IMG/VR virus record: IMGVR_UViG_3300021420_000053
Coordinates: 1-47,518 of that record
Length of the DNA: 47,518 nucleotides
Reading direction: 5' to 3' (one strand)
Origin: a virus
Both the position numbers and the translations under genes were made by a program. The notes beneath the pieces are model-generated. The model was not told where the DNA came from. It did no database searches and was given only the letters and a program-made list of their open reading frames with translations. Shown here in pieces: positions 3,576-47,518 of the stretch. Every line of letters begins with the position of its first letter. The stretch's first letter is position 1.

Positions 3576-5795
3576 ATGTTCGCTGAGTACATCCGGCACG
3601 GTTGGGCGCTTTGCGCTATTCCGGGCGGTAAGAAAGGCCCGACTGGCGTCGGATGGAACGTTGCTGGTATTGCACTCGATGCTGCAGATGGCCTGGTAAA
3701 CGCCGGGTTACTCCACGCGCTGAGCGGCACGTGCGCCTTAGACCTAGATAATCTAGAGGCTGCCCGCCCGTGGCTCGCTGAGCGCGGTGTTGACGTTGAC
3801 GCGTTGCTCGATGCTGACGATGCGGTCCAGATAAGCTCAGGACGCGCAGGGCGGGCCAAACTCCTGTACCGTATGAAGCGCCCGCTCCGTACGTTTAAGC
3901 CGCCAGGGAGCGGCCTAGAACTGCGCTGTGCATCGGCCAACGGGAAGTCTGTTCAAGATGTCCTGCCCCCTAGTATGCATCCGGACACGAAGAAACCGTA
4001 TGAATGGGCGGGCGGGATTCTTGGCGACTGGCGTAGTCTGCCTACGATACCTGCGAATCTTCTAAACGTATGGCGCGATCTTGAGCCGGATATAAACAGT
4101 ACCATTTCTGCACAAGTGGTGTCATCAGGGGATGCGGATGCCACTGCCGCCAAGCAAAGTCCCCCGATAGACTTAGTAAAACTGCGTAAGGCGGCGTTCA
4201 CACATTCACCGGACTGCGAATATGACGAATGGATCAAAGTCGGTATGCAATTGCACGATGGCACTGACGGCGATGGTGCAGGCTTCGATATTTGGCGCGA
4301 CTGGTCCCGAGGTATTAAGCGTGCAGCGTACCCTGGCGATGTTGTGCTCAAATCACATTGGCTCAGCTTCGAATCGGGCGCCGGTAAGCACGTCGCGTCA
4401 GGCGAAGCGCTCGCAGCCGAAGCGCCCGTTGACATCGAGGACCTTGAAATTATCCCGGACGAAATCGCCAACGCGACGATCGTTGAGAAGCTAACAGGCA
4501 AAAGCGCGGAGCGGCTAAAAGCACTCGACGCGCTCACCGAACGTTTTGTGTTTGTAATTTGGGAACAGGAATACTTCGACGCCGAGCGCAACGTGCTCAT
4601 AGGCGACAAGGCGATCCGCCACATGCTGACGCCGCTCATGCCGCGTAAGAACGGCAAAGAGTTGGACCCAGTCGACCGCCTCATGCGAACCAAGGATAAG
4701 CGCAGCGTCGAAGCGCTCGCATTCTATCCAGGCGAATCATCGATATTCGAGTACAAAGGCAAGCGATACGCGAACCAATGGACTGATCGCAGCCCGACAC
4801 CGATTGCGCCAATGAAAGATGAACTCGAAAAAATTGATTGGCTCTTCGGACGCATCGATGATCCCGAATATCGATCGTGGCTCCTGCAATTCTACGCACA
4901 CATGGTCCAGCATCCAGGCATAAAGATTCGCACCGCGCCCCTCATTTGGTCGAAGGTACAAGGCAATGGCAAAAGCACAATCGTTGGAACCATCCCCAAA
5001 TTATTGGTGGGTGAAGACTATTACACTGAGGTTACGCAGGGCGAGCTTAATAGTGATCACAACGATTTCCTTATCGGAAAGTGGCACATTACCCTGGCGG
5101 AATTTCGTGCGGGTACACGTGGCGAACGGGAAGCTATCAGCAAGAAAGTGGAAAATTGGATCGCTGACGATATCCTTGCCGTACACCCGAAAGGGACGAA
5201 GGGCTACAGCATCCCTAACCATTTGGTCGTTACCGCGAGCACCAACAAGGATGACGCGGCACTGATCGATGAGAACGACCGCAAATGGGCGGTCCACAAC
5301 TTAAGCGCACCGGCAATGACCGGCGAGGAAAAAGAATGGTTATTCACAAAGTTCCTACGGACGAATCGAGCGCCGGCAGTATTGAGACACTATTTCCTTT
5401 CTGTACCGCTCACTACGTTCGATCCCAATGCCGACGCACCGAAGACGCACTCAAGATTCTCCATGATCGAGGCATCGATTGCTCCGGATTTAGAGATGCT
5501 CGTGACTTCCTTCGAAGAGCGCTCAGAGCCGCTATCGAAGGGTGTGGTAATCACCCGCGATGTAGCGGACTATGTGCGGCAACACTGCTCCGCGAAACCC
5601 TCAAATGATCGTATTGGCAAGATACTTGCAGGGCCACCTTTCAACGGTGTTGCCATGCGCAAGCGCGTCGGCCAGTCAATTTATCGCATGATCGCGCTTG
5701 ACCCTAGATGGATCAACGCAAGCGGCGCCGACACCATGAAGCATATCAACGGTGACGACGCCGAACTTGCTGACGGAAACGATTTACTGCTATGA
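3576..5795 (+). CDS. Primase-polymerase / superfamily 3-type helicase fusion
   Basis: 739 residues, the phage replicative primase-helicase. Residues 1 to about 170 look like the bifunctional primase/polymerase (Prim-Pol) domain: ALDLDN at 54-59 gives the catalytic acidic pair and SGRAGRAKLLYRM follows at 88-100. Residues about 200-270 fit a PriCT-2-type domain (DEWIKVGMQLHDG, then FDIWRDWSRG). The C-terminal half is a DUF5906/virulence-associated-E-type ATPase: Walker A QGNGKST at 462-468 and Walker B-like ITLAEF at 505-510. It would unwind the template and lay primers for the polymerase at 9893. ATG at 3576 is the only possible start (a stop lies at 3564), yet it has no clear ribosome binding site. 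Confidence 0.9.
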   Translation: MFAEYIRHGWALCAIPGGKKGPTGVGWNVAGIALDAADGLVNAGLLHALSGTCALDLDNLEAARPWLAERGVDVDALLDADDAVQISSGRAGRAKLLYRMKRPLRTFKPPGSGLELRCASANGKSVQDVLPPSMHPDTKKPYEWAGGILGDWRSLPTIPANLLNVWRDLEPDINSTISAQVVSSGDADATAAKQSPPIDLVKLRKAAFTHSPDCEYDEWIKVGMQLHDGTDGDGAGFDIWRDWSRGIKRAAYPGDVVLKSHWLSFESGAGKHVASGEALAAEAPVDIEDLEIIPDEIANATIVEKLTGKSAERLKALDALTERFVFVIWEQEYFDAERNVLIGDKAIRHMLTPLMPRKNGKELDPVDRLMRTKDKRSVEALAFYPGESSIFEYKGKRYANQWTDRSPTPIAPMKDELEKIDWLFGRIDDPEYRSWLLQFYAHMVQHPGIKIRTAPLIWSKVQGNGKSTIVGTIPKLLVGEDYYTEVTQGELNSDHNDFLIGKWHITLAEFRAGTRGEREAISKKVENWIADDILAVHPKGTKGYSIPNHLVVTASTNKDDAALIDENDRKWAVHNLSAPAMTGEEKEWLFTKFLRTNRAPAVLRHYFLSVPLTTFDPNADAPKTHSRFSMIEASIAPDLEMLVTSFEERSEPLSKGVVITRDVADYVRQHCSAKPSNDRIGKILAGPPFNGVAMRKRVGQSIYRMIALDPRWINASGADTMKHINGDDAELADGNDLLL

Positions 5796-6270: not shown

Positions 6271-6494
6271 TGAGCACCATCTGCAAACTCAGTCCGGAAG
6301 TGCGGCGCCGCCGCGCTCTCCGGGCTAACTTACTGCGCAATCCGCCGAAGTTTAGGAACCATGAATCGGTCGCGCTAGCCGGACGCATCATGGCGGAATT
6401 GCATCTCATCCACGACTCGTCCCGCCTGCGCGGCGACACCAAGCATATGTTGTTCATGCGCGGCGCTAAGCAACTAGCAGAGTTACCAGAATGA
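6270..6494 (+). CDS. Hypothetical basic 74-residue protein
   Basis: Starts at a TAATG overlap and ends in an ATGA overlap with the DUF2800 gene. The Arg-rich N-terminus (MSTICKLSPEVRRRRALRAN) is followed by helices (SVALAGRIMAELHLIHD). Probably nucleic-acid associated, judging only from charge and neighbours. Confidence 0.75.
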   Translation: MSTICKLSPEVRRRRALRANLLRNPPKFRNHESVALAGRIMAELHLIHDSSRLRGDTKHMLFMRGAKQLAELPE

Positions 6495-7723
6495 GCACTC
6501 ACAAACTATTCGCAATGAGCGCTTCCCACAGGTGGATTGCTTGCCCTGGCTCGATGGCGTTCCCCGAGAATCGCGAGAGTGACGGCGGCAGCTCAGAGTA
6601 CGCCGATGACGGGAGCATGACGCACATCTGGTCCGCCATGTTTCTTAAAAATGGCAAGAATCCCACAGACGCCATCGGCGCCACTGGCACACTGCGAGAA
6701 GGAGGCAAAGTTTATGTCCTCGATGAAGAACGCGCGGCGCGCATCCAAGGTTACGTCGACGATGTCAGGCGTCGTGCAGTTGGCGGACATCTTATGGTTG
6801 AGATCTCGTCCGAACTTACGCCGGATGTCGGCGGAACGGCCGATGCCGCTATCGCCCTCCCTGCTCAACGTCTTGGGGTTGTCGAAGATCTCAAAGACGG
6901 TAGCGGCGAGAAAGTCATGGCTAGCTACGACGGAGCGCCTAATCCGCAGCTCGCGGGTTATGCACTCTCTTTGCTCCCGTACTTCGAACTCTTTGGACCC
7001 GTAGACAACGTGCTGCTGGTTGTGTACCAGCCGAAGTTGAACAATATCGATGAGTTTTTAATAAGCGTTGCCGATCTTAAAGTTTTTGGCGAAAAGCTTT
7101 ACAACGCGGTGAAAACTGCTAAGTCCTGCATAACGACTAACAAAGATGGGCTGATGCCTGTTGAACAACTCAATCCCGGCTACCAGCAGTGCCGATGGTG
7201 CCGTGCCAAGACGCGCTGTCCTGCCGCCGCAAAGTTTGTTGAAGAATCCATGCTAGCGAATCTGGAGACGATAGCGGCTGAGGAGCCAATAGTTCCTATA
7301 CGCTCGGACAAGCTCTCAGCGGCCTACGGTGCTGTACCATTCATCCGTGACTGGTGTAATGCAGTCGAGATGGAACTTAGCTCACGCGTCGCAGGCGGCG
7401 CCGAGATCAACGGGCCGGATGGTAAACCGTACAAATTCGTCGAAGGCAAAGAAGGAGCGCGCAAATGGACAGATCCGATCGCGGCGGCAGTAGCCCTGGA
7501 GGGCCAGCTAGGCCCGAAGGCGTACAGCGAGCCGAAGGTAATCACGGCGCCGCAAGCGGCGAAGCTGCTCAAGACAAAGAAAACCGAAGCATTATGGAAC
7601 GACGTGTTCGAGCCTCTGATTAAGAGACCAAGAGGACGCCCGATCTTGACGATTGGCTCGGATACCCGTCCCACGTTTACCGGGGCAACATCGTTAGATG
7701 ATCTTGAGGATATAGCGGAATGA
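6491..7723 (+). CDS. DUF2800 family, Cas4/RecB-like PD-(D/E)XK nuclease-type protein
   Basis: 410 residues. The opening (LFAMSASHRWIACPGSMAF) is the signature of DUF2800 proteins, related to the PD-(D/E)XK nucleases of the RecB/Cas4 group. A later VVEDLKDGSGEKV fits the catalytic strand with its acidic and Lys residues. The cluster CRWCRAKTRC (about residues 235-244), together with the early Cys, is in the place where Cas4/AddB-like proteins bind an iron-sulphur cluster. It is followed in order by a DUF2815 protein, a pairing I know from many phage replication modules. Likely role: end processing for recombination or replication. Confidence 0.85.
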   Translation: MSTHKLFAMSASHRWIACPGSMAFPENRESDGGSSEYADDGSMTHIWSAMFLKNGKNPTDAIGATGTLREGGKVYVLDEERAARIQGYVDDVRRRAVGGHLMVEISSELTPDVGGTADAAIALPAQRLGVVEDLKDGSGEKVMASYDGAPNPQLAGYALSLLPYFELFGPVDNVLLVVYQPKLNNIDEFLISVADLKVFGEKLYNAVKTAKSCITTNKDGLMPVEQLNPGYQQCRWCRAKTRCPAAAKFVEESMLANLETIAAEEPIVPIRSDKLSAAYGAVPFIRDWCNAVEMELSSRVAGGAEINGPDGKPYKFVEGKEGARKWTDPIAAAVALEGQLGPKAYSEPKVITAPQAAKLLKTKKTEALWNDVFEPLIKRPRGRPILTIGSDTRPTFTGATSLDDLEDIAE

Positions 7724-7881: not shown

Positions 7882-8084
7882 ACGACATTGTTGAGTATTC
7901 CTACTCGCGCCTCGATAACCGCGGCACGTGCTGCAATCAGAACAAAGAAACTAAGTGCGGTCGGGACAAGGTGCCCGGCCACATTTATTGCAACTCATGT
8001 CGAGTTGCTACTGGCGGTTTTAACCGCTATAATCCGCCCCGCCAATCACAGACACACGGAGATTTACATGGCACTAGCAGATAA
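7878..8084 (+). CDS. Cys-rich small protein
   Basis: 68 residues from the ATGA overlap. Five Cys in the pattern TCCNQNKETKCGRD and YCNSC suggest a metal site. The last 17 bases overlap the start region of the DUF2815 gene. Function unknown. Confidence 0.65.
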   Translation: MNDIVEYSYSRLDNRGTCCNQNKETKCGRDKVPGHIYCNSCRVATGGFNRYNPPRQSQTHGDLHGTSR

Positions 8085-8661
8085 CGAAATGCTGCTTAAA
8101 AACGTTCGCATCACGACGTTTGGACAGCAAACCATCTATACCGCAAAGGCGTTCCCTGGCGGCAAAGATCCCACCCCGTACTACAGTCTGAACGCGATTC
8201 TTCCCAAGGATCACCCGCAGATTCCACAAATCGAAGCACAGATGCTTGCCGCCGCCAACAAAAAGTTTGGCGACAAGAAAGGTGCCGGCGTATTGAAAGC
8301 CGCGAAGCTTATCGGCAAGGTGCCACTACGTGATGGAGACATCAAGGCTGATTATGACGGCTTCGAAGGGAACATGTTCCTTTCGGCGCGTTCAGCGGAA
8401 GACAAGGGCCGCCCGCAAGTAGTCAACAACCTGCGGCAGCCTGTGCAGCCCGGCGATCCCAACGCCCCATACGATGGCTGCTACGCCGATCTTGTCATCA
8501 GTTTCTATGGCTATGACAAGGGCAACAATGGCATTGGTTGCGGCTTGAAAGTCGTGCAGTATCGCGGCAAGGGTGATCGCTTCTCAGGTGCCGGCAAGCC
8601 GGTAGACCTCGACGATCTGGAAGAGATCGCAGTCAACGACGAAGACGATATCAACAGTTAA
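8068..8661 (+). CDS. DUF2815 family single-stranded-DNA-binding protein
   Basis: 197 residues from ATG 8068, with GGAG 6 bases upstream; the frame stays open to 7888, but that extension overlaps the previous gene and has no similarity to the family. The protein begins MALADNEMLLKNVRITTFGQ, has the FPGGKDPTPYYSLNAIL region and an acidic C-terminal tail (LEEIAVNDEDDINS), a property of ssDNA-binding proteins that recruit partners. DUF2815 proteins are OB-fold-like and occur next to DUF2800 nucleases and polymerases in phages. Confidence 0.85.
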   Translation: MALADNEMLLKNVRITTFGQQTIYTAKAFPGGKDPTPYYSLNAILPKDHPQIPQIEAQMLAAANKKFGDKKGAGVLKAAKLIGKVPLRDGDIKADYDGFEGNMFLSARSAEDKGRPQVVNNLRQPVQPGDPNAPYDGCYADLVISFYGYDKGNNGIGCGLKVVQYRGKGDRFSGAGKPVDLDDLEEIAVNDEDDINS

Positions 8662-9692: not shown

Positions 9693-9896
9693 ATGACTGA
9701 AGATGACCTCAGTATGCTTGATTATTTCTGGTTCCAGAAAGAGGACATTGAACGCTGGTCCTCATGGAAAGAGCGGCGGTCGGTGATTCAGGCGACGCAC
9801 CCCGAGATCGTAAAAGCATGGGATGATTACCAAACGGCGCGGCGCACGTTGTCCGCTATCATCAAAGGCTCTATGTCTGATGCCGAGGGTAAATGA
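9693..9896 (+). CDS. Hypothetical protein preceding DNA polymerase
   Basis: 67 residues, acidic and Trp-rich (LDYFWFQKEDIERWSSWKER). Starts 11 bases after the methyltransferase stop without a strong ribosome binding site (GAAACGAAGCC upstream). Its stop overlaps the polymerase start (ATGA), so its translation probably sets polymerase synthesis. Unknown family. Confidence 0.7.
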   Translation: MTEDDLSMLDYFWFQKEDIERWSSWKERRSVIQATHPEIVKAWDDYQTARRTLSAIIKGSMSDAEGK

Positions 9897-11965
9897 CTAA
9901 GCGCCTTTGGCTCGACATCGAGACGCGCGGCGTGAACTTCAAATACGGGCACGCGAAGTATGCGCAGACCGTTGAAGTCATCATGGTGCAGTGGGCCATA
10001 GATGACGGACCGGTCACGGTAATCGATCTCACGAATGCGGACATCGAACTAGTTGGACTTCCACTCGTAACCGCGGCGGCAACGTGCGACGAGGTATGGT
10101 CACAAGGTGACTTCGACCACACCATGCTATACACGACTGACTGGTGGCCCAAGATCCCACTGGAGAAGTGGCGCGACACCATGGCGCTAGCGCGTATGCA
10201 TGGGCTGCCCGGAGCGCTCGATAAACTGTGCCAGATATTCAAGGTAGCGGACAATGAAGCAAAAGACCGACTCGGTAAAGAGTGGATCGCCCTTTTCTGC
10301 AAACCCAAGGAAGACGGAACCTACAACGATCGTCACTCCCACCCCTTGGAGTGGGAGGCGTTTCTTTGCTATGCAGGACAAGATATTCTCGCAATGCGGG
10401 CAGTGTGGCGAGCTTGTCCCAAATGGAACGCTACCCCCCGAATGTGGGCAGTGTGGCACCTAGATCAGCGGATGAATGCACGCGGCGTTGCGGTAGATCT
10501 CGCGCTCTGTGAGGGCGCAGCGAAGGCCACGGACATTACCAAAAAGAATATGGCGGACCGCACGCTGGAGATCACGAGTAACGACCCATGGTCGGAGCAC
10601 GTCGTCGAGCGCACCACGCAACGCGATCGGTTGCTCCGCTACATGGCAGACTATGGCGTGAAGCTCCCGGACTTGACAGCGGATACCGTCGAGCGCAGGC
10701 TCGAAGATGAATCGCTTCCCGAACACATCAAGGAGTTGCTGCGTGTCCGACAACAGGCTAGTAAGGCAAGTTCTGCTAAGTATAAGCGAGCAATTAATCA
10801 GAACGTTGGTGGGAGACTTAGAAACCTCCTTGTGTTCTGTGGTGCTGCAAGGACTGGTAGATGGGCCGGAAGAACTTTCCAACCTCAGAACCTCCCTCGA
10901 CCTAAGCATAAACGATGGGAAATTGAGCTTGCAATACAGTTGTTCCGTACAGGGGAAATCGATCTCTGGAAGCCGGACGATATCCTTGGACTTGCCTCAA
11001 GTTGTCTCAGAGGAATCATCGTTGCCGGCGAAGGCTCTAAACTAGTCGTCTCGGACTTCGCCAACATCGAAGGCCGGGATATGGCATGGGTGGCGGGTGA
11101 GGAGTGGAAACTTGAAGCATTCAAAGCGTTCGACCGAGGTGAGGGCCCTGATCTATACAAGATTGCTTACGCCCGAGCATTTAACATTGATCCAAACGAT
11201 GTTGGGGACGAATCGTTCGAACGACAAATCGGAAAAGTCATGGAGCTTGCTCTGCAGTATTACGGCGGAGTTGGCGCCTTCTGCTCGATGGCAGAGACCT
11301 ATGGACTTCGGCTTGAAGATCTGGCACAACGGGCATGGCCTGTCATTCCGCAGGATTACAAACAAGCAAGCAAGGTTGCCTGGCACAAAGCGTTGAAGCG
11401 GCGCCGCGACTACGGACTCGAAGAACGGATATGGTGCGTATGTCACGCGCTAGTCCTTATGTGGCGCGCGGCGCACCCCGCGATTTGCAACTTTTGGCAG
11501 GAGCTAGACAATGCGACAAAAATGGCCACTAAAGTCCCTGGCAAATCCTACCGGGTTGGACCTTTCATATCAGTTGATCGACAGGACAACTGGCTTCGTA
11601 TCCGACTCCCTAGCGGCCGCTATCTTAACTATCCAGCGCCACGTGGAGATGAGTACTCCAGCTCGTTCATGGGAGTTGACCCTTACACGAAGCAGTGGAA
11701 AAGGATCTCAACGTATTCAGGTAAGCGGGCTGAAAATATCGTTCAGGGAATTGCCGCAGACCACATGATGGATGGACTACTAGCCGCGGAGGCAGCCGGG
11801 TACAACCCTGTGCTGAGCGTACACGATGAAGCTATTACCGAGCCTCCTGATGAAGATCGATACGACGACGTTAGGCTGTCGCGCATCCTTGTGGAATCGT
11901 CACTATGGGCAGATGGACTTCCGCTCGCCGCGAAAGGATTCACAGCCAAGAGGTACAGAAAATGA
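9893..11965 (+). CDS. Family A DNA polymerase with 3'-5' exonuclease domain
   Basis: 690 residues. The N-terminal third is a DEDD proofreading domain: LWLDIETRG carries D8 and E10, and CYAGQDILAMRAVW carries the Exo III Asp. The polymerase half has motif A as DFANIEGRD (from residue 388; Asp then Glu of the canonical DYSQIELR), motif B as RQIGKVMELALQYYGG and motif C as VLSVHDEAI with HDE at 644-646. There is no 5'-3' exonuclease domain. It would be the replicative enzyme, working with the primase-helicase and the DUF2815 protein. From about 10740 to 11040 Arg is often AGA/AGG and base composition shifts, unlike the CGC-rich flanks. Confidence 0.95.
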   Translation: MTKRLWLDIETRGVNFKYGHAKYAQTVEVIMVQWAIDDGPVTVIDLTNADIELVGLPLVTAAATCDEVWSQGDFDHTMLYTTDWWPKIPLEKWRDTMALARMHGLPGALDKLCQIFKVADNEAKDRLGKEWIALFCKPKEDGTYNDRHSHPLEWEAFLCYAGQDILAMRAVWRACPKWNATPRMWAVWHLDQRMNARGVAVDLALCEGAAKATDITKKNMADRTLEITSNDPWSEHVVERTTQRDRLLRYMADYGVKLPDLTADTVERRLEDESLPEHIKELLRVRQQASKASSAKYKRAINQNVGGRLRNLLVFCGAARTGRWAGRTFQPQNLPRPKHKRWEIELAIQLFRTGEIDLWKPDDILGLASSCLRGIIVAGEGSKLVVSDFANIEGRDMAWVAGEEWKLEAFKAFDRGEGPDLYKIAYARAFNIDPNDVGDESFERQIGKVMELALQYYGGVGAFCSMAETYGLRLEDLAQRAWPVIPQDYKQASKVAWHKALKRRRDYGLEERIWCVCHALVLMWRAAHPAICNFWQELDNATKMATKVPGKSYRVGPFISVDRQDNWLRIRLPSGRYLNYPAPRGDEYSSSFMGVDPYTKQWKRISTYSGKRAENIVQGIAADHMMDGLLAAEAAGYNPVLSVHDEAITEPPDEDRYDDVRLSRILVESSLWADGLPLAAKGFTAKRYRK

Positions 11966-12756: not shown

Positions 12757-13232
12757 GACTCGTTCACTTAGAGCTAAAGGAAGCAAATGATTTCATTTCT
12801 TTGCATCATCGCCACCATAAACCTGTCACTGGTCATCGCTTTTCTATTGGATGTAGAGTGGCTAGAGCCGGCCCGGCCTACGATGTACTTGTTGGTTGTG
12901 CTATTGTCGGGCGCCCTGTTGGTGGAACTCATCAGTATGAATGGCTCGAAGTCACTCGATTGTGTACAGACGGCACCCCAAACGCCTGTAGCTTTCTGTA
13001 CGGCGCAGCAGTGCGAGCAGGCAAAGCCCTTGGGTACACTCGAATTCAAACCTACATTCTGAAGGAAGAGTCAGGAGTGTCCCTCAAGGCTAGTGGCTGG
13101 AAGTTCGATCGCATGTCGCATCCGCCGGGTTGGCACCATGACGGGCCGCGGAGCGCTCGCAAGGTCGAGGCGCATTTGATGGACCGCAAACAACTTTGGT
13201 ACAGGCCGTTGGTCGATGAGCTATTACTTTGA
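12753..13232 (+). CDS. XF1762 family protein, acetyltransferase-like
   Basis: 159 residues. The opening LELKEANDFISLHHRHHKPV with HRFSIGC is the hallmark of the family named after Xylella XF1762. The fold seems related to GNAT acetyltransferases (a beta strand VGCAIVGRPV, then LEVTRLCTDGTPNACSFLYG as the acceptor/CoA region). Biochemical function is not established. The family is common in phages and mobile elements near SNF2 helicases and VRR-NUC nucleases, as here. Its stop overlaps the TTG start of the helicase. Confidence 0.85.
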   Translation: MRLVHLELKEANDFISLHHRHHKPVTGHRFSIGCRVARAGPAYDVLVGCAIVGRPVGGTHQYEWLEVTRLCTDGTPNACSFLYGAAVRAGKALGYTRIQTYILKEESGVSLKASGWKFDRMSHPPGWHHDGPRSARKVEAHLMDRKQLWYRPLVDELLL

Positions 13233-14602
13233 AACCACTCGTCCTGCGTCCCATACAACAGCCGATGATAGAGTTCGCGAAGGATCACCCACGCTGCTCG
13301 ATTTGGGCAGGTATGGGCAGCGGCAAAACATCAGCAATGGAGTACTTGATTGCACTACTTAAACTATTGGGGGAGACCTCGTCTCCCTGGCTTGTGCTCG
13401 GTCCCATGCGCGTTGCGCGAGACACATGGCCGGAAGATATGGCACGTTGGGATCAGTTCAGGGATCTGCGAATTGTGCCCCTTACTGGAAGCCCATTGCA
13501 GCGGTACGATAAGCTCAAGCGCGGCGCCGACATCTTCACCATCAGCTACGAGAACGCCCCATGGCTCGTAGAGTATTACGAGGAAAGGTGGCCGTTCCGA
13601 AACGTGATCGCGGACGAGAGCGACCGGCTGAAGGGGTTTCGAACCAAACAGGGCGGGCAGCGAGCGCAAGCTATCGCGCGAGTCGCGCACAACTTGACCG
13701 ACCGTTGGATAAATCTTACCGGGACACCGTCGCCGAATGGTTTAAAAGATCTATGGGGGCAGACGTGGTACTTGGACCGTGGCGAACGGCTAGGACACAC
13801 ATACACAGCATTCACAGAGCGTTGGTTCAAACCTAAATGGAACCAACATGGCATCGAACCAATGCCGCACTCGGATCGCGAGATCCATGCCGCGCTTAAG
13901 GACATATGCATCACGATCGACCCAAAGGACTATTACGATCTCAAGGACCCAATAGTCACGCGGATACCTATCAAGTTGCCTGCACCGGCCCGAGCGATCT
14001 ACAAAGAGCTGGAGAAGGAAATGTTCACGCAACTGGAGTCCGGCGAAGAACTAGAGGTGTTCAACGCTGCGGCTCTAACCAACAAATGTATGCAGCTAGC
14101 GAACGGCGCTGTGTATACTACTTACCCCGAATGGGCGGCGGTGCACGATGAAAAGATCGAGGCTTTACGATCCGTTGTATCTGAGTCTGGTGGCGCTCCG
14201 CTACTCATCTCTTACGCATTTAAATCCGACCTCGCTAGAATTAAGAATGCTTTTCCGAGTGCTGTCGAACTTAGTGTACCTGCGGGAATGGCAGCCTTCA
14301 AAGCGGGCAATGCACCAATGGGTCTTGCACACCCTCAGAGCATGGGTCACGGGATTGACGGACTCCAGAACGTCTGCAACACTCTCGTCCGCTACGGGCA
14401 TACCTGGAACGCCGGAGCAGAAATGCAGCTCGTCGAACGAATCGGTCCCATGCGTCAACTACAGTCCAACATGGACAGACCTGTGTGGGTTTACGATATC
14501 GTCGCAGAAAACACCATAGAGGAAGACGCTGTAGACGCCTTCGCGGCGAAGCGCAGCGTCCAAGATGCTTTACTTTTAGCGATGAACCGCAGGAGAAAAT
14601 GA
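13229..14602 (+). CDS. SNF2-type superfamily 2 helicase
   Basis: 457 residues from TTG 13229 (TTGA overlap). Q-motif-like opening (LRPIQQPMIEF), Walker A AGMGSGKTS with GSGKT at 30-34, a motif II variant ADESDR (DESD where most SNF2 proteins have DEAH or DEGH), and motif III LTGTPSPNG. C-terminal helicase motifs V and VI are present as LAHPQSMGHGIDGLQ and LVERIGPMRQL; in motif VI the usual Q-x-x-G-R-x-x-R appears as ERIGPMRQ. Remodels or unwinds branched DNA, probably with the VRR-NUC protein. Confidence 0.9.
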   Translation: MKPLVLRPIQQPMIEFAKDHPRCSIWAGMGSGKTSAMEYLIALLKLLGETSSPWLVLGPMRVARDTWPEDMARWDQFRDLRIVPLTGSPLQRYDKLKRGADIFTISYENAPWLVEYYEERWPFRNVIADESDRLKGFRTKQGGQRAQAIARVAHNLTDRWINLTGTPSPNGLKDLWGQTWYLDRGERLGHTYTAFTERWFKPKWNQHGIEPMPHSDREIHAALKDICITIDPKDYYDLKDPIVTRIPIKLPAPARAIYKELEKEMFTQLESGEELEVFNAAALTNKCMQLANGAVYTTYPEWAAVHDEKIEALRSVVSESGGAPLLISYAFKSDLARIKNAFPSAVELSVPAGMAAFKAGNAPMGLAHPQSMGHGIDGLQNVCNTLVRYGHTWNAGAEMQLVERIGPMRQLQSNMDRPVWVYDIVAENTIEEDAVDAFAAKRSVQDALLLAMNRRRK

Positions 14603-16410: not shown

Positions 16411-17562
16411 ATGCCAGCAATAGCGAAAACGCCTGAAGAGTTACAACAGGCGGTCGATGCGGTTGCCGCTCACGGGAGCATTACCGCCGCAGCTCGCGCA
16501 ATCGGAATACCGCGCACTACGTTATCCGGGCGGCTTAGCCTAGCCGCTGCAGAAGGCATTCAAGCGGAATGCCAAGCACTCATCGTCGGTGATAAAGCCG
16601 CACCGCCCGAAGGCTACAAGCTCAAAGGCACATCCACCTACTACAGCCGCAACGAAGCTACCGGACAAATGGAGGCGCGCGGCCAATGGGTGAAGACAGA
16701 TCGGGCGCTTGAAGAACTTCAGGCGATGCAGAAAGCCGCGCTCGCCGCGATGTGCGCCGAGATCGCGCCGCTGCCAGCGATCGTCATGCCGGCGTACAGT
16801 TTCGAGGACTTGCTGACTCTTATCACCATAACTGACTACCACGTAGGAATGCTCGCATGGGACAAAGAAACGGGAGAGGATTGGGACCTGAATATTGCCG
16901 AATCGATAGCTTCAATATTCTTACAGATGATCGACGCAGCACCTGCAAGTGCAGTTGGGATAATCAACCAGTTGGGGGATTTCCTACACTTCGATTCACT
17001 TCTAGCACTTACACCGACTTCGAAACATGTGCTCGATGTGGACTCCCGATACCAGAAAGTCGTCGAGGTGGCTGTCCGGATTTTACGGCGTATCATCGCG
17101 CACGCTTTGACAAAGTTTCCGAAGGTGCAAGTCTATATGCACGAGGGGAATCACGACCCTGCCGGCTCCGTCTGGTTACGGGTAATGTTTGCCCAGCTAT
17201 TTGCCGAGAATACCCGTGTATCGATCGGGATGTCGCCTAACCCGTATACGGCGTACCAACACGGCGAGAACATGATAGGGTTTCACCATGGACACCTCAG
17301 CAAGAAAGAAAAGCTCCCGATCCTCTTCGCCGCAAAGTTCCCCGAAATATGGGGATCTACTAAGCATCGCGTCATTCATGTCGGCCATCTCCACAACGTC
17401 GTGGAGCAAGAGCACCCCGGAATATCGGTTGTTCAACACGCTACTCTCGCGGCTCCCGACGCCTATGCTGCACGCAATGGCTACATCTCGAAGCGGCAGG
17501 CGGTTAGCTGCACGTACCACAAAACCAAAGGTGAGATAATCCGCGCAGTGTTCACGCCTTGA
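16411..17562 (+). CDS. HTH plus calcineurin-like metallophosphoesterase
   Basis: 383 residues, with AAAGGAATTT before the ATG. Residues 1-50 are a helix-turn-helix (GSITAAARAIGIPRTTLSGR). The rest is a metallophosphoesterase: D142 and H144 in ITDYHVGM, GDFLHFD at 189-195, GNHD at 246-249 and the distal GHLHN near 320, which together supply the two-metal site. This combination is known in tailed phages without a firm function; nuclease or nucleotide phosphatase activity is likely. It ends in a TTGA overlap with the next gene. Confidence 0.85.
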   Translation: MPAIAKTPEELQQAVDAVAAHGSITAAARAIGIPRTTLSGRLSLAAAEGIQAECQALIVGDKAAPPEGYKLKGTSTYYSRNEATGQMEARGQWVKTDRALEELQAMQKAALAAMCAEIAPLPAIVMPAYSFEDLLTLITITDYHVGMLAWDKETGEDWDLNIAESIASIFLQMIDAAPASAVGIINQLGDFLHFDSLLALTPTSKHVLDVDSRYQKVVEVAVRILRRIIAHALTKFPKVQVYMHEGNHDPAGSVWLRVMFAQLFAENTRVSIGMSPNPYTAYQHGENMIGFHHGHLSKKEKLPILFAAKFPEIWGSTKHRVIHVGHLHNVVEQEHPGISVVQHATLAAPDAYAARNGYISKRQAVSCTYHKTKGEIIRAVFTP

Positions 17563-42840: not shown

Positions 42841-43025
42841 TAAAACACCCTATGCAGAATGGCCGAAATCACACCGAAGTGACTGACGGCGAACCCAACA
42901 ACAGCGGCGACGGCCTTGGTGTAGTGCGCTTTGAAGAACGCAACAACCTTTGACTCGTCGGCCTTGACCACAGCAACATCGGCCTTAACGGCGGATGCGA
43001 TGGATGAAATAGTTGCGTCAGCCAT
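42840..43025 (-). CDS. Small amphipathic/membrane-like protein
   Basis: 61 residues. The first half is a charged helix with repeats of the type KADVAVVKADESKVVAFFKA; the second half is hydrophobic (AVAAVVGFAVSHFGVISAIL), long enough for one membrane span. No holin-like charge pattern at the C-terminus. Overlaps the terminase nuclease gene by one base. Unknown role. Confidence 0.7.
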   Translation of the reverse strand: MADATISSIASAVKADVAVVKADESKVVAFFKAHYTKAVAAVVGFAVSHFGVISAILHRVF

Positions 43026-43687
43026 TAGAAATACCTCACTTTCGGTTTCTGATTGCGGTCATTGTACTCGATCCACTTTTCGGTGAACGGCACAAGTAAG
43101 GGTTTAGTATCGCTCAAAGGAACTTGGGGGTCAAACATCTTGTCAACCCCGCGACCGATAAGACCGCATACGTCCGCCTTGTCGTCCCATCTTCCGGCTG
43201 GAAATTTAACGAGTTGCGTGATGACGCCACCCTCGCCCTTAGAGCCGTTTCCGTCCGACCACGCGCGATTCACCGGCAAGTGGATCGCACCCGCGCAGGC
43301 CATGGCGTGAAACGCTTGCAGCTTATATGCTTTGTCCGTCAGCGACGGGAGTGATTCGATAACGGTGTACGTTTGGCGGTCGCGCATCGCTTTGCGTTTC
43401 TGTGCGCCGATCGCTTTGTCGATCAATCCGCCTTCGTCGAACCAGTAGATAGGCTTCCATCGTGCGACGAGGTTAAGCCATGCCGTGATCCCCACGTCGG
43501 TCTCACATTGCTTGCTCCACCAGTCAATGGCCCACAACTCGCCTCGCCGATCAATCCCCCACACGCCGTGCTCAGTGAAGTCAGGCTCTTTCTTACCCGC
43601 TTTAGGTTCCATTGTTGCGAAGTCAGACGCGCCATAAATGCGAAGAGTCTTCGGAAGCGCATCGAGGCCGTCATACATTTGAATCAC
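43025..43687 (-). CDS. Terminase large subunit, nuclease (RuvC-like) half
   Basis: 220 residues from GTG 43687, overlapping the stop of the intervening gene. It carries the three acidic positions of the headful nuclease: D22 in IYGASDFATM, D84/E85 in YWFDEGGLID and D168-D169/D172 in WDDKADVCGL, plus WGIDRRGELWAIDWW, the usual second strand pair. It begins exactly where the ATPase half stops (both contain an MY after F/I-x). It would cut packaged DNA after the head is filled, in complex with the product of 43878-44918. Confidence 0.88.
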   Translation of the reverse strand: MIQMYDGLDALPKTLRIYGASDFATMEPKAGKKEPDFTEHGVWGIDRRGELWAIDWWSKQCETDVGITAWLNLVARWKPIYWFDEGGLIDKAIGAQKRKAMRDRQTYTVIESLPSLTDKAYKLQAFHAMACAGAIHLPVNRAWSDGNGSKGEGGVITQLVKFPAGRWDDKADVCGLIGRGVDKMFDPQVPLSDTKPLLVPFTEKWIEYNDRNQKPKVRYF

Positions 43688-43881
43688 GGATTACACTGCT
43701 TCAGCTCGCCGCTAGGGGCGACGTAGATCGCCGTAGGGCAGCCGTGGTCGTTACGCTTGAGATTTTCTTGATCCCACGACTGCAGCTTGATCTCACCCTC
43801 GTGCGGGTTGTAACGGTGCATGTGGATGCCGCCTTCCGTGAGGAGCACTGCGAGTGTTATAGCAAACAGAATTTTCTTCAT
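43684..43881 (-). CDS. Secreted-type small protein between the terminase halves
   Basis: 65 residues. MKKILFAITLAVLLTEGGIH is a signal-peptide-like or signal-anchor start. The rest is polar, with two Cys (HGCPTAIYVAP and LKQCNP). It is coupled to both terminase genes: its ATG overlaps the ATPase stop (ATGA) and its TGA overlaps the nuclease GTG (GTGA). It is not similar to terminase. An envelope function such as exclusion is only a guess; it is an insertion of a cargo gene at a domain boundary. Confidence 0.75.
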   Translation of the reverse strand: MKKILFAITLAVLLTEGGIHMHRYNPHEGEIKLQSWDQENLKRNDHGCPTAIYVAPSGELKQCNP

Positions 43882-44918
43882 GTGTCTACTCGTGCGAGAT
43901 CCGGATTGTACATCCGAAACATCTCGCGGTTAAAGTGAACGCCAGTGAAGGGCGCGGGACGCTGCTGATAAAGCGCAGCCCACGTTCGCGCAGCGCGCGG
44001 ATTATCGCGCCACGTACTCCAGTGTTCCTTAGGAAACCATTCGGGCCAAAGAAACTCACCGGGTTTCCGTCCAAGAACGTCGTCGTCCCTTTCGGCTTCG
44101 GCGGGTATACAAAGAACTTCCCATTCCTGTCCATCACGACAACGTATGAGTCCGCTTTCACCGGAATAGTCTGCGGGGAGAATGGAACCACTTAAGTCCT
44201 CCTCATGCCAGCGCGTTTGTATGATCAGCACCGACATGCGCGGCTTGGCGCGCGTCATGGCAGTGTCAAGATACTCGTTGTACGTCTTCTCGCGGATCGC
44301 AGGCGAGTCGGCCTGCTCGCGGTTTGCTACAGGATCGTCTAGCACCAAAAGATCACAACGATTTCCAGTGATGCCCGCGAGCAGGCCGGCTGCCATCATG
44401 CTCGATCCGTTCGTCATTTGCCAGTCGTCGATCGCGCGCTGGTCATCCTGGAGGACCGGCTTGGTTTCCCAAATACCTGTGTAGCTCGGATCGCGTACAA
44501 TCGATCGCACTTTCCGCGATTGTTTTGTAGCTATAGTAGTAGCATACGAACCTAAGATCACCTGGAAACCAGGCCACTTGCCCATTGCCCAAGCCGGCCC
44601 CAATACAGCCCCGTAGGTAGATTTCCCCGAACCGGGGGGTTCGAATATCATCGTTCGTCCGCGTGGTTTCTCTATGCATCTCTGTATCGCCTGCATGGTT
44701 AGGATGTGGTGAATTGCAACGCGCGACTCGACGGGTGTGTACGAAACCTTTACGTGCTCGATGCGGTCTTTAAGCTTTCCCTTCTCGTCCTCTTCGTCGA
44801 TGATCTCGACTTGCGGCACGCCCGGCACATCGATCGACTGGCTGAAGTCGACCAAGCTGGCGCGGCTGCGCTCGCGGCGTTGCAACTCGTTTGAGTATCG
44901 GTGGGGGGCTAGCTCCAT
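43878..44918 (-). CDS. Terminase large subunit, ATPase half
   Basis: 346 residues. Walker A PPGSGKST at 94-101, Walker B LLVLDDPV with the Asp pair at 194-195, and coupling motif IIQTRWHEEDL with QTRWH at 234-238. It ends after HFNREMFRMYN, the linker that normally joins the nuclease domain, with only nine further residues (the stop lies at the ATGA overlap). The packaging motor thus seems to be encoded by two genes. Its own start has TGAGGT just upstream, 3 bases after the small subunit stop. Confidence 0.9.
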   Translation of the reverse strand: MELAPHRYSNELQRRERSRASLVDFSQSIDVPGVPQVEIIDEEDEKGKLKDRIEHVKVSYTPVESRVAIHHILTMQAIQRCIEKPRGRTMIFEPPGSGKSTYGAVLGPAWAMGKWPGFQVILGSYATTIATKQSRKVRSIVRDPSYTGIWETKPVLQDDQRAIDDWQMTNGSSMMAAGLLAGITGNRCDLLVLDDPVANREQADSPAIREKTYNEYLDTAMTRAKPRMSVLIIQTRWHEEDLSGSILPADYSGESGLIRCRDGQEWEVLCIPAEAERDDDVLGRKPGEFLWPEWFPKEHWSTWRDNPRAARTWAALYQQRPAPFTGVHFNREMFRMYNPDLARVDT

Positions 44919-46483: not shown

Positions 46484-46528
46484 GTCGGTTTGGGTCCCTC
46501 GCGCGATACCCCCCGGCCTTCCAAACTT

Positions 46529-46544
46529 GGCACGATTCTTGGGT
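46529..46544 (+). promoter_or_regulatory. Degenerate sigma-54-like site
   Basis: TGGCACGATTCTTGGG (plus strand) equals the leftward sigma-54 site (TGGCACGATTATTGCG) except for two bases, but its -12 dinucleotide is GG instead of the required GC. It points into non-coding sequence, so it may be a decoy, a protein-binding repeat or a relic. Confidence 0.3.
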
Positions 46545-46762: not shown

Positions 46763-46885
46763 AGCAGCGTTTGTGCCTCTTGTGCCTCTTGTGACTCTTA
46801 ATATACGACTATGCATGTGCGCGCGCACAGAGGGAGGGAGTGACTATATAGCGTCACAAGAGGCACAAGAGGCACAAACGCTGCT
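46763..46885. repeat. Perfect 33-bp inverted repeat made of 9-bp iterons
   Basis: Positions 46763-46795 are the exact reverse complement of 46853-46885; the arms are separated by 57 bases that include an AT-rich stretch and the palindrome TGTGCGCGCGCACA (46816-46829). Each arm holds tandem 9-bp units GTGCCTCTT (46773-46781, 46782-46790, then the variant GTGACTCTT) or their complements (46858-46866, 46867-46875). Origin, cruciform or RNA hairpin are all possible. Confidence 0.9.
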
Positions 46886-46903: not shown

Positions 46904-46971
46904 CGTGCCACTTGTGCGTGCCGCTATCCGTGCCGCCTGACACAAACCGCTGCTCGCAATAATCGTGCCAC
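46904..46971. repeat. Four CGTGCC(A/G)C repeats
   Basis: CGTGCCAC or CGTGCCGC occurs at 46904-46911, 46917-46924, 46929-46936 and 46964-46971. In the minus orientation each reads like the -24 element (T/C)GGCACG of a sigma-54 promoter. Only the last has a matching -12 element. Confidence 0.75.
46956..46970 (-). promoter_or_regulatory. Leftward sigma-54 (RpoN) promoter, perfect consensus
   Basis: Minus-strand TGGCACGATTATTGC fits the established consensus TGGCACGN4TTGC with GG (-24) and GC (-12) separated by exactly 10 bases. Expected start near 46944, which would give a leader of roughly 500 bases before the gene at 46446, crossing the 33-bp inverted repeat. Confidence 0.65.
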
Positions 46972-46982
46972 TGACAATTTTT

Positions 46983-47021
46983 GTCACTTTGTGACGGTCA
47001 CAATGTGACACTATTTGTCAC
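46983..47021. promoter_or_regulatory. Array of five alternating GTCAC/GTGAC half-sites
   Basis: GTCAC (46983), GTGAC (46991), GTCAC (46997), GTGAC (47005) and GTCAC (47017) alternate within 39 bases, forming several overlapping dyads. The array lies between the two divergent sigma-54-like promoters, where an enhancer-binding protein or repressor would bind both. Confidence 0.7.
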
Positions 47022-47069
47022 CGCGCTGCACAAATCAAGCATTCAGCCGTCCGCTTGCAGCGTTTGCGT

Positions 47070-47085
47070 TGGCACGCCCGATGCA
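47070..47085 (+). promoter_or_regulatory. Rightward sigma-54-like promoter
   Basis: TGGCACGCCCGATGCA keeps GG and GC spaced by exactly 10 bases; only the first T of TTGC differs. Predicted start near 47096 gives a leader of about 27 bases before the 73-residue gene with its GGAG site. It faces away from the leftward promoter. Confidence 0.6.
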
Positions 47086-47122
47086 TACTCTTCTGTGAGA
47101 GCAACGAACCGGAGACAGACAG

Positions 47123-47344
47123 ATGGATACAGCCGATACCCGATGCGTGGTGACAGTGGTCAACCAAGGAGTACGCTTCTTCTTGCGCGGTACCACATGG
47201 GCATTCCACCTTGACCGCGCCAATGTCTTTGCCGATGCGCCAGCAGCGTATGACGCGGCCGACAAGGCGCGCAAATTTATGCCCCCTAAGATCCGTAAGA
47301 CGTACGAAGTGTGGGCACTGAAGACGGCACAACGCGAGGTCTGA
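47123..47344 (+). CDS. First gene of the rightward operon, hypothetical
   Basis: 73 residues with GGAG 9 bases upstream. MDTADTRCVVTVVNQGVRFF and the following LRGTTWAFHLDRANVF are beta-type, then a helix (APAAYDAADKARKFMPPKIR). It is the first gene after the rightward sigma-54-like promoter and so probably among the earliest expressed. Family unknown; a short (CATGGG/CCCATG) dyad follows it. Confidence 0.8.
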   Translation: MDTADTRCVVTVVNQGVRFFLRGTTWAFHLDRANVFADAPAAYDAADKARKFMPPKIRKTYEVWALKTAQREV

Positions 47345-47391: not shown

Positions 47392-47518
47392 AACCGATAG
47401 GAGCGAACATGTCAGACACCAACAACGCGGCAGCTAACGCGGCAGCTAACGCGGCAGCTAACGCGGCAGCTAACGCGGCAGCTAACGCGGCAGCTAACGC
47501 GGCAGCTAACGCGGCAGC
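47392..47518. repeat. Terminal redundancy of the contig, right copy
   Basis: This is an exact copy of bases 1-127. It repeats the ribosome binding site, start codon and most of the 12-bp tandem array of the gene at 18-293. It should be trimmed or merged, and the second, truncated copy of that gene should not be counted. Confidence 0.9.

Follow-up and report, generated by a model that had tools for sequence, protein, structure and literature searches.

The region 46971-47123 of the window is very likely a sigma-54 (RpoN) promoter modeled on the one in front of the host major type IV pilin gene. The window is the whole stretch of viral DNA that was analyzed (47,518 nucleotides; IMG/VR record IMGVR_UViG_3300021420_000053). 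It is a complete circular virus record, and a 127-bp terminal repeat shows the circularity. By computation, we retrieved a promoter site, an array that shares its core with pilA enhancers, conservation and ordered spacing of the two, and no activator in the phage records tested. We infer early activity of the promoter during infection and transcription of the entire plus-strand operon from it.

The plus-strand operon starts at 47123, runs across the circle join, and continues into 1-19 kb. It contains the replication genes. The minus-strand operon contains the terminase, portal, and capsid genes. The plus-strand early operon encodes the following:

47123-47344, plus strand: first early-operon gene, 73 aa, without a known family
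3576-5795: primase
6491-7723: exonuclease
7888-8661: SSB
9893-11965: DNA polymerase
13229-14602: helicase
16411-17562: second exonuclease

For the early genes of a phage, one would expect transcription by a phage polymerase or with the housekeeping sigma factor. A sigma-70 scan of the promoter region retrieved one site, which is chance level. A search for a single-subunit RNA polymerase (PF00940), run without a positive control, gave no match, and the absence of a phage RNA polymerase rests mainly on annotation.

The large terminase is encoded by two genes at 43025-44918 (ATPase, 43878-44918; nuclease, 43025-43687). Relatives of the nuclease gene were found in 16 of the promoter-bearing loci that were examined. 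The neighborhood of the array is rich in repeats. A 41-nt inverted repeat at 46763-46885, 93% complementary with a 41-nt loop, is built from TTGTGCCTC units. Placed between the minus-strand operon and the array, it would fall within the leader of a late transcript. A 12-bp tandem repeat, AACGCGGCAGCT, is present at 33-134 and 47424-47518. It lies within the second early gene and codes for repeated NAAA. Its copy number may be misassembled because the contig join falls inside the repeat.

The promoter region contains the following:

46956-46970, minus strand: site TGGCACGATTATTGC(G), assigned to the repeat TGGCAYGnTTCTTGCR; probably no sigma-54 promoter
46971-46987: enhancer (UAS) dyad 1, CTGACAATTTTTGTCAC, core identical to host pilin-gene enhancers
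46990-47002: central palindrome, TGTGACGGTCACA, in the same position in relatives L010, L016, L017, L019, and L033
47005-47021: enhancer dyad 3, GTGACACTATTTGTCAC, 48 bp ahead of the -24 element
47033-47045, plus strand: IHF-like site, AATCAAGCATTCA, in the enhancer-promoter interval, one mismatch to WATCAANNNNTTR
47070-47085, plus strand: sigma-54 promoter core, TGGCACGCCCGATGCA, GG at -24 and GC at -12, kept in nine TerL relatives with a free spacer
47111-47114, plus strand: Shine-Dalgarno sequence GGAG of the first early gene, by direct reading

On the plus strand, the site at 47070-47085 is very probably a genuine sigma-54 promoter. It reads T-TGGCACG-CCCG-ATGC-A. This is one mismatch from YTGGCACGN4TTGCW, with GG-N10-GC intact and A as the last base. 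It has the GG-N10-GC consensus and the upstream enhancer sites that are expected of a sigma-54 promoter, and an IHF-like site, also usual there, in between. The replication operon's first gene begins 38 nt downstream of it, after the Shine-Dalgarno sequence, and transcription is predicted to start near 47096. The window contained six matches to TGGCACGN4TTGC with no more than one mismatch, versus 1.65 expected, and none of 100 dinucleotide shuffles reached six. Two of the six are 100 bp apart in the divergent region. The shuffles and the relatives rule out a chance origin of the sites. The first-pass annotation had placed this site one mismatch from the RpoN consensus, which holds both for its letters and against shuffled sequence. 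Its proposal of RpoN control over the early operon is supported by the conservation of the site, the enhancer array, the IHF-type site, and the helical spacing.

The key element of the region is an array of GTGAC/GTCAC palindromes at 46971-47021. It lies between the two sites, approximately 50 bp ahead of the -24 element, and was absent from the first-pass annotation. We searched the upstream regions of 30 bacterial type IV pilin (pilA) genes for palindromic motifs, starting from random seeds and blind to the phage. The motif learned was GTGACAAAnTTTGTCAC, present in about 80% of the 30. Its best two matches in the window were dyad 1 (46971; 25.7 bits) and dyad 3 (47005; 22.5 bits), and the next scored 14.5. 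The maximum under a Markov null averaged 10.8 bits, with a top value of 23.0 in 100. In the 11.9 kb of DNA upstream of pilA genes, the pattern TGACN7GTCA was counted 20 times, versus once in the surrounding 84 kb. The pilA-type layout has TGACA-N5-TGTCA approximately 75 to 110 bp before the -24 element. The core of dyad 1 (46972-46986) is 83 bp from the -24 T.

A search of 120 host genomes for the core TGACAAWWWTTGTCA gave 14 places. Type IV pilin genes lay directly downstream of nine, and eight of these nine have a -24/-12 element, at gaps of 74, 85, 85, 87, 106, 106, 144, and 151 bp. The full phage pattern had one match in 398 Pseudomonadota host genomes. It was a type IV pilin (pilA) promoter. 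Host loci L232, L234, L235, L240, L244, and L245 carry TGACAAWWWTTGTCA without a sigma-54 core before a recognized type IV pilin gene. In L232, a type IV pilin-like signature lies 349 bp away. These loci are possible further members of the regulon of the pilin activator.

Relatives of the phage were gathered by TerL homology, and the regions upstream of their terminase genes were compared. Near-consensus sigma-54-like sites were strongly concentrated in these regions and fell into two classes. The first class is TTGGCACG-N5-TGC followed by A/T. It stands 25 to 50 nt ahead of the ATG that opens the early, divergent operon, and its spacer varies freely. It contains the plus-strand site of the window and sites from nine relatives (L007, L010, L016, L017, L018, L019, L022, L033, and L039). 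The GTGAC/GTCAC array is present approximately 50 bp upstream of every first-class site and is weak in L039. The close relatives G001 (approximately 80% identical terminase), L014, L032, and L035 have neither the array nor the promoter. This joint loss fits one functional unit. The second class is TGGCAYGnTTCTTGCR and contains the minus-strand site. The TerL relatives include Microcystis phages, which have cyanobacterial hosts. Cyanobacteria are not known to have RpoN.

Viral contigs were scanned twice. The first scan, for one dyad with a sigma-54 core at 34 to 64 bp, retrieved 52 stretches. The second, for the other dyad type at 60 to 90 bp, retrieved 55, versus 5 with a scrambled dyad. A displaced-spacing control retrieved 16 stretches versus 52, but it is not clean because several of the 16 look like genuine promoters with more distant arrays; a scrambled-enhancer control was used in its place. 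The pooled nonredundant set contained 87 promoters in 85 loci, with related sequences that are not fully independent and with approximate E values for the pattern counts. The module is thus present in at least 85 viral loci and is not peculiar to the window phage. A pilin signature was found downstream in none of the phage promoter loci, so they are not host pilin loci. Among the phages that carry the module are at least four terminase families (phrog_38, 675, 2, and 5989), several families of portal protein, and one or more phages with an integrase. L093 and L097 were retrieved with only the enhancer pattern, and neither record has a terminase related to that of the window. The sigma-54 core of L093 is perfect (12/12) and at the distance expected, and that of L097, TGGCACGGCACTGGCA, is weaker and farther off. 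The unrelated viral contigs L094, L095, L096, and L098 have a GTCACAGTGTGAC-GTCACACTGTGAC array with no sigma-54 core nearby. The enhancer-promoter module was not found in two cultured portal-protein relatives, Polaromonas phage Tiera and Pseudomonas phage PaMx41. When the promoter and the enhancer were compared with GenBank phages by BLASTN, no real match was returned, which says little because short palindromes are below BLASTN sensitivity.

The viral promoters carry the marks of enhancer-dependent sigma-54 promoters, namely, consensus flanks, IHF enrichment, and phased spacing. At the positions left free in the search patterns, A/T follows TGC in 83 of the 87 viral promoters, and C/T precedes TGG in 84. 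In the dyad-promoter interval, the first viral set had 10 perfect IHF sites (0.11 expected) and the second had 9 (0.16 expected), approximately 60- to 90-fold enrichment across the sets. Dyad-promoter spacings in the first set clustered at 38-43, 48-55, and 59-64 bp, with none at 44-47 or 56-58 (p<5e-5). The second set was also helically phased (p=0.0045).

The first-pass annotation had described a perfect RpoN match on the minus strand, paired it with the plus-strand site 100 bp away, and read the two as divergent sigma-54 promoters that switch on the whole genome. The match itself stands. TGGCACGATTATTGC (46970-46956) is the sole exact match to TGGCACGN4TTGC in the window. However, the base after TTGC is G, where the sigma-54 consensus has A/T, and a promoter role is unsupported. 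The site has no start codon near it, and its distance to the closest usable dyad of the enhancer, 34 bp, falls outside the phase clusters. Sigma-54 sites have A/T after TTGC, an unconstrained spacer, and an orientation toward a gene; the minus-strand site departs from this in its G and in the spacer and orientations of its class. Its class, TGGCAYGnTTCTTGCR, has 45 copies in the relatives, 24 in one orientation and 21 in the other. The copies are often in tandem at 14 to 19 bp, away from start codons and near terminase genes. TTGC is followed by G or A in them, and their spacer is constrained. The motif is present at 46528-46542 (plus strand) and 46956-46970 (minus strand) in the window and in relatives L011, L018, L021, L022, L023, L030, L040, and L043. 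It is possibly a packaging, origin, or operator repeat. We judged a role as sister promoter unlikely for the minus-strand site, given the random orientation, the constrained spacer, and the G/A after TTGC. The site is probably not a sigma-54 promoter and is most likely part of this other repeat. The matched pair is therefore not supported. The 100-bp separation in the divergent region is confirmed, but the sites are unequal in kind, one a promoter and the other a repeated motif. The plus-strand site is kept in the nine relatives, whereas the minus-strand motif is not next to genes. The switch is supported for the early operon, and the claim had lacked the enhancer and the pilin-type identity.

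These features also bear on a reading in which one enhancer serves both sites and RpoN drives the early and late operons. L018 (8400-8503) has one array between two outward sigma-54 cores, an early one of 11/12 and a late one of 12/12, with phased gaps of 43 and 42 bp. It is the best candidate for a truly divergent sigma-54 pair. A late-facing near-consensus site also recurs upstream of terminase genes in several relatives. For the window, such sharing is unlikely, given the G and the 34-bp gap of the minus-strand site and a motif class that is orientation random, tandem, and constrained in its spacer and that is also present in the array-less G001. The palindromes could instead serve a phage protein, as iterons of an origin or as the operator of a repressor, with an accidental likeness to pilA enhancers. 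The repeat-rich neighborhood and the second repeated motif fit this reading. It is extremely improbable, because a blind motif trained on hosts ranks the array top in the window, because IHF sites are enriched and spacings helically phased, and because the same module is present in phages with unrelated packaging genes. The array could instead be mainly a decoy whose replicated copies titrate PilR off pilA, so that pili stop and superinfecting phages are excluded. Each promoter has two or three dyads, equal to or stronger than host dyads, and phages do target this system; the protein PIT4 of phage LSL4 binds PilS and lowers twitching (PMC10714779). A pure decoy would need no sigma-54 core, IHF site, helical spacing, or ribosome-binding site with ATG, and we regard this reading as very unlikely.

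The activator appears to come from the host. None of 9 phage records and none of 42 viral records had a sigma-54 activator domain (PF00158) over the cutoff. The host genome in the same search and 14 of 14 control genomes were positive. A phage-encoded activator was rejected, with no hit over the cutoff in the 51 phage records, and a host activator must therefore be used. PilR and sigma-54 activate pilA, and PilS reportedly reacts to the depletion of pilin (PMC6058289). In commensal Neisseria, pilE depends on RpoN, on the response regulator Npa, which has its site upstream, and on IHF at an intervening position (PMC6528607). PilR is the likely activator because the motif is positioned at pilin genes, where PilR and Npa act (PMC6058289, PMC6528607). 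Host PilR would thus bind the array and activate the promoter. In the host contigs, pilR was mostly not found beside pilA; one sigma-54 activator gene adjoins pilA (L230). The same sigma-54 promoter could use another host enhancer-binding protein that shares the GTGAC-N7-GTCAC site. The published Pseudomonas aeruginosa PilR site is described otherwise (TGTN11AGA plus GTCT), and five of the 14 host TGACAAWWWTTGTCA loci are not beside a pilin gene. Such a protein is nevertheless quite unlikely. The other nine of the 14 core sites and the sole full-module match are pilin promoters, and pilin genes have PilR, or in Neisseria its counterpart Npa, as their established sigma-54 activator.

Under the pilin-type reading, host PilR, activated by PilS, would bind the dyads on the incoming phage genome. 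IHF would bend the DNA between the enhancer and the promoter. The activator would open the RpoN polymerase waiting at 47070-47085, which would transcribe the replication operon from near 47096. The phage would contribute only DNA sites, and the sigma factor and activator would be those of the host. A possible side effect is a drop in pilin synthesis as the copies of phage DNA made by replication titrate PilR.

The closest kin of this promoter are the PilR/RpoN-dependent pilA promoters (Pseudomonas aeruginosa pilA, Xylella pilA1, and commensal Neisseria pilE with RpoN, IHF, and Npa). They share with the phage the -24/-12 element, upstream TGACA-N5-TGTCA palindromes, IHF between, and a similar enhancer-promoter spacing. 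Unlike them, the phage module drives a replication operon, its dyads are more numerous and cleaner, and no pilin gene is near any phage copy. P2 Ogr and P4 delta act at palindromic sites upstream of phage late promoters, which are of the sigma-70 type with a phage-encoded activator. The window class also has upstream palindromic activator sites, but no phage-encoded activator was found for it. The early promoters of phage T5 likewise use the host RNA polymerase (with sigma-70) and no phage polymerase (PMC7472727). Unlike T5, the window phage would need the alternative sigma-54 and an ATP-driven host activator, not the housekeeping sigma factor. PIT4 of Pseudomonas phage LSL4 is likewise a case of phage interference with PilS-PilR (PMC10714779). 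PIT4 is an inhibitory protein, whereas the window phage would use the DNA sites of the system as its own switch.

We found no report of sigma-54- or PilR-driven phages in the open-license full-text literature. With more than 80 independent-looking viral promoters, the strategy is likely general, and it would have escaped notice because no cultured phage among the records checked carries the module. If a pilin-type promoter switches on the replication genes, the lytic program would depend on the host type IV pilus regulator. Because PilS responds to pilin depletion, the phage may start fastest in cells that are handling pili or touching surfaces. There is about an even chance that many unrelated phages have copied the pilA promoter and placed their lytic switch under PilS-PilR, so that early transcription tracks the state of the pilus (e.g., pilin depletion on surface contact) and phage DNA, after replication, may titrate PilR and shut off pili. 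A need for RpoN and a specific host enhancer protein would tie phage takeover to the pathway that monitors type IV pili. If true, this would give a regulatory reason why some phage-adsorbing cells survive, and pilR and rpoN mutants would be resistant after phage entry. The enhancer, IHF, and -24/-12 signature would also serve to predict the hosts of metagenomic phages.
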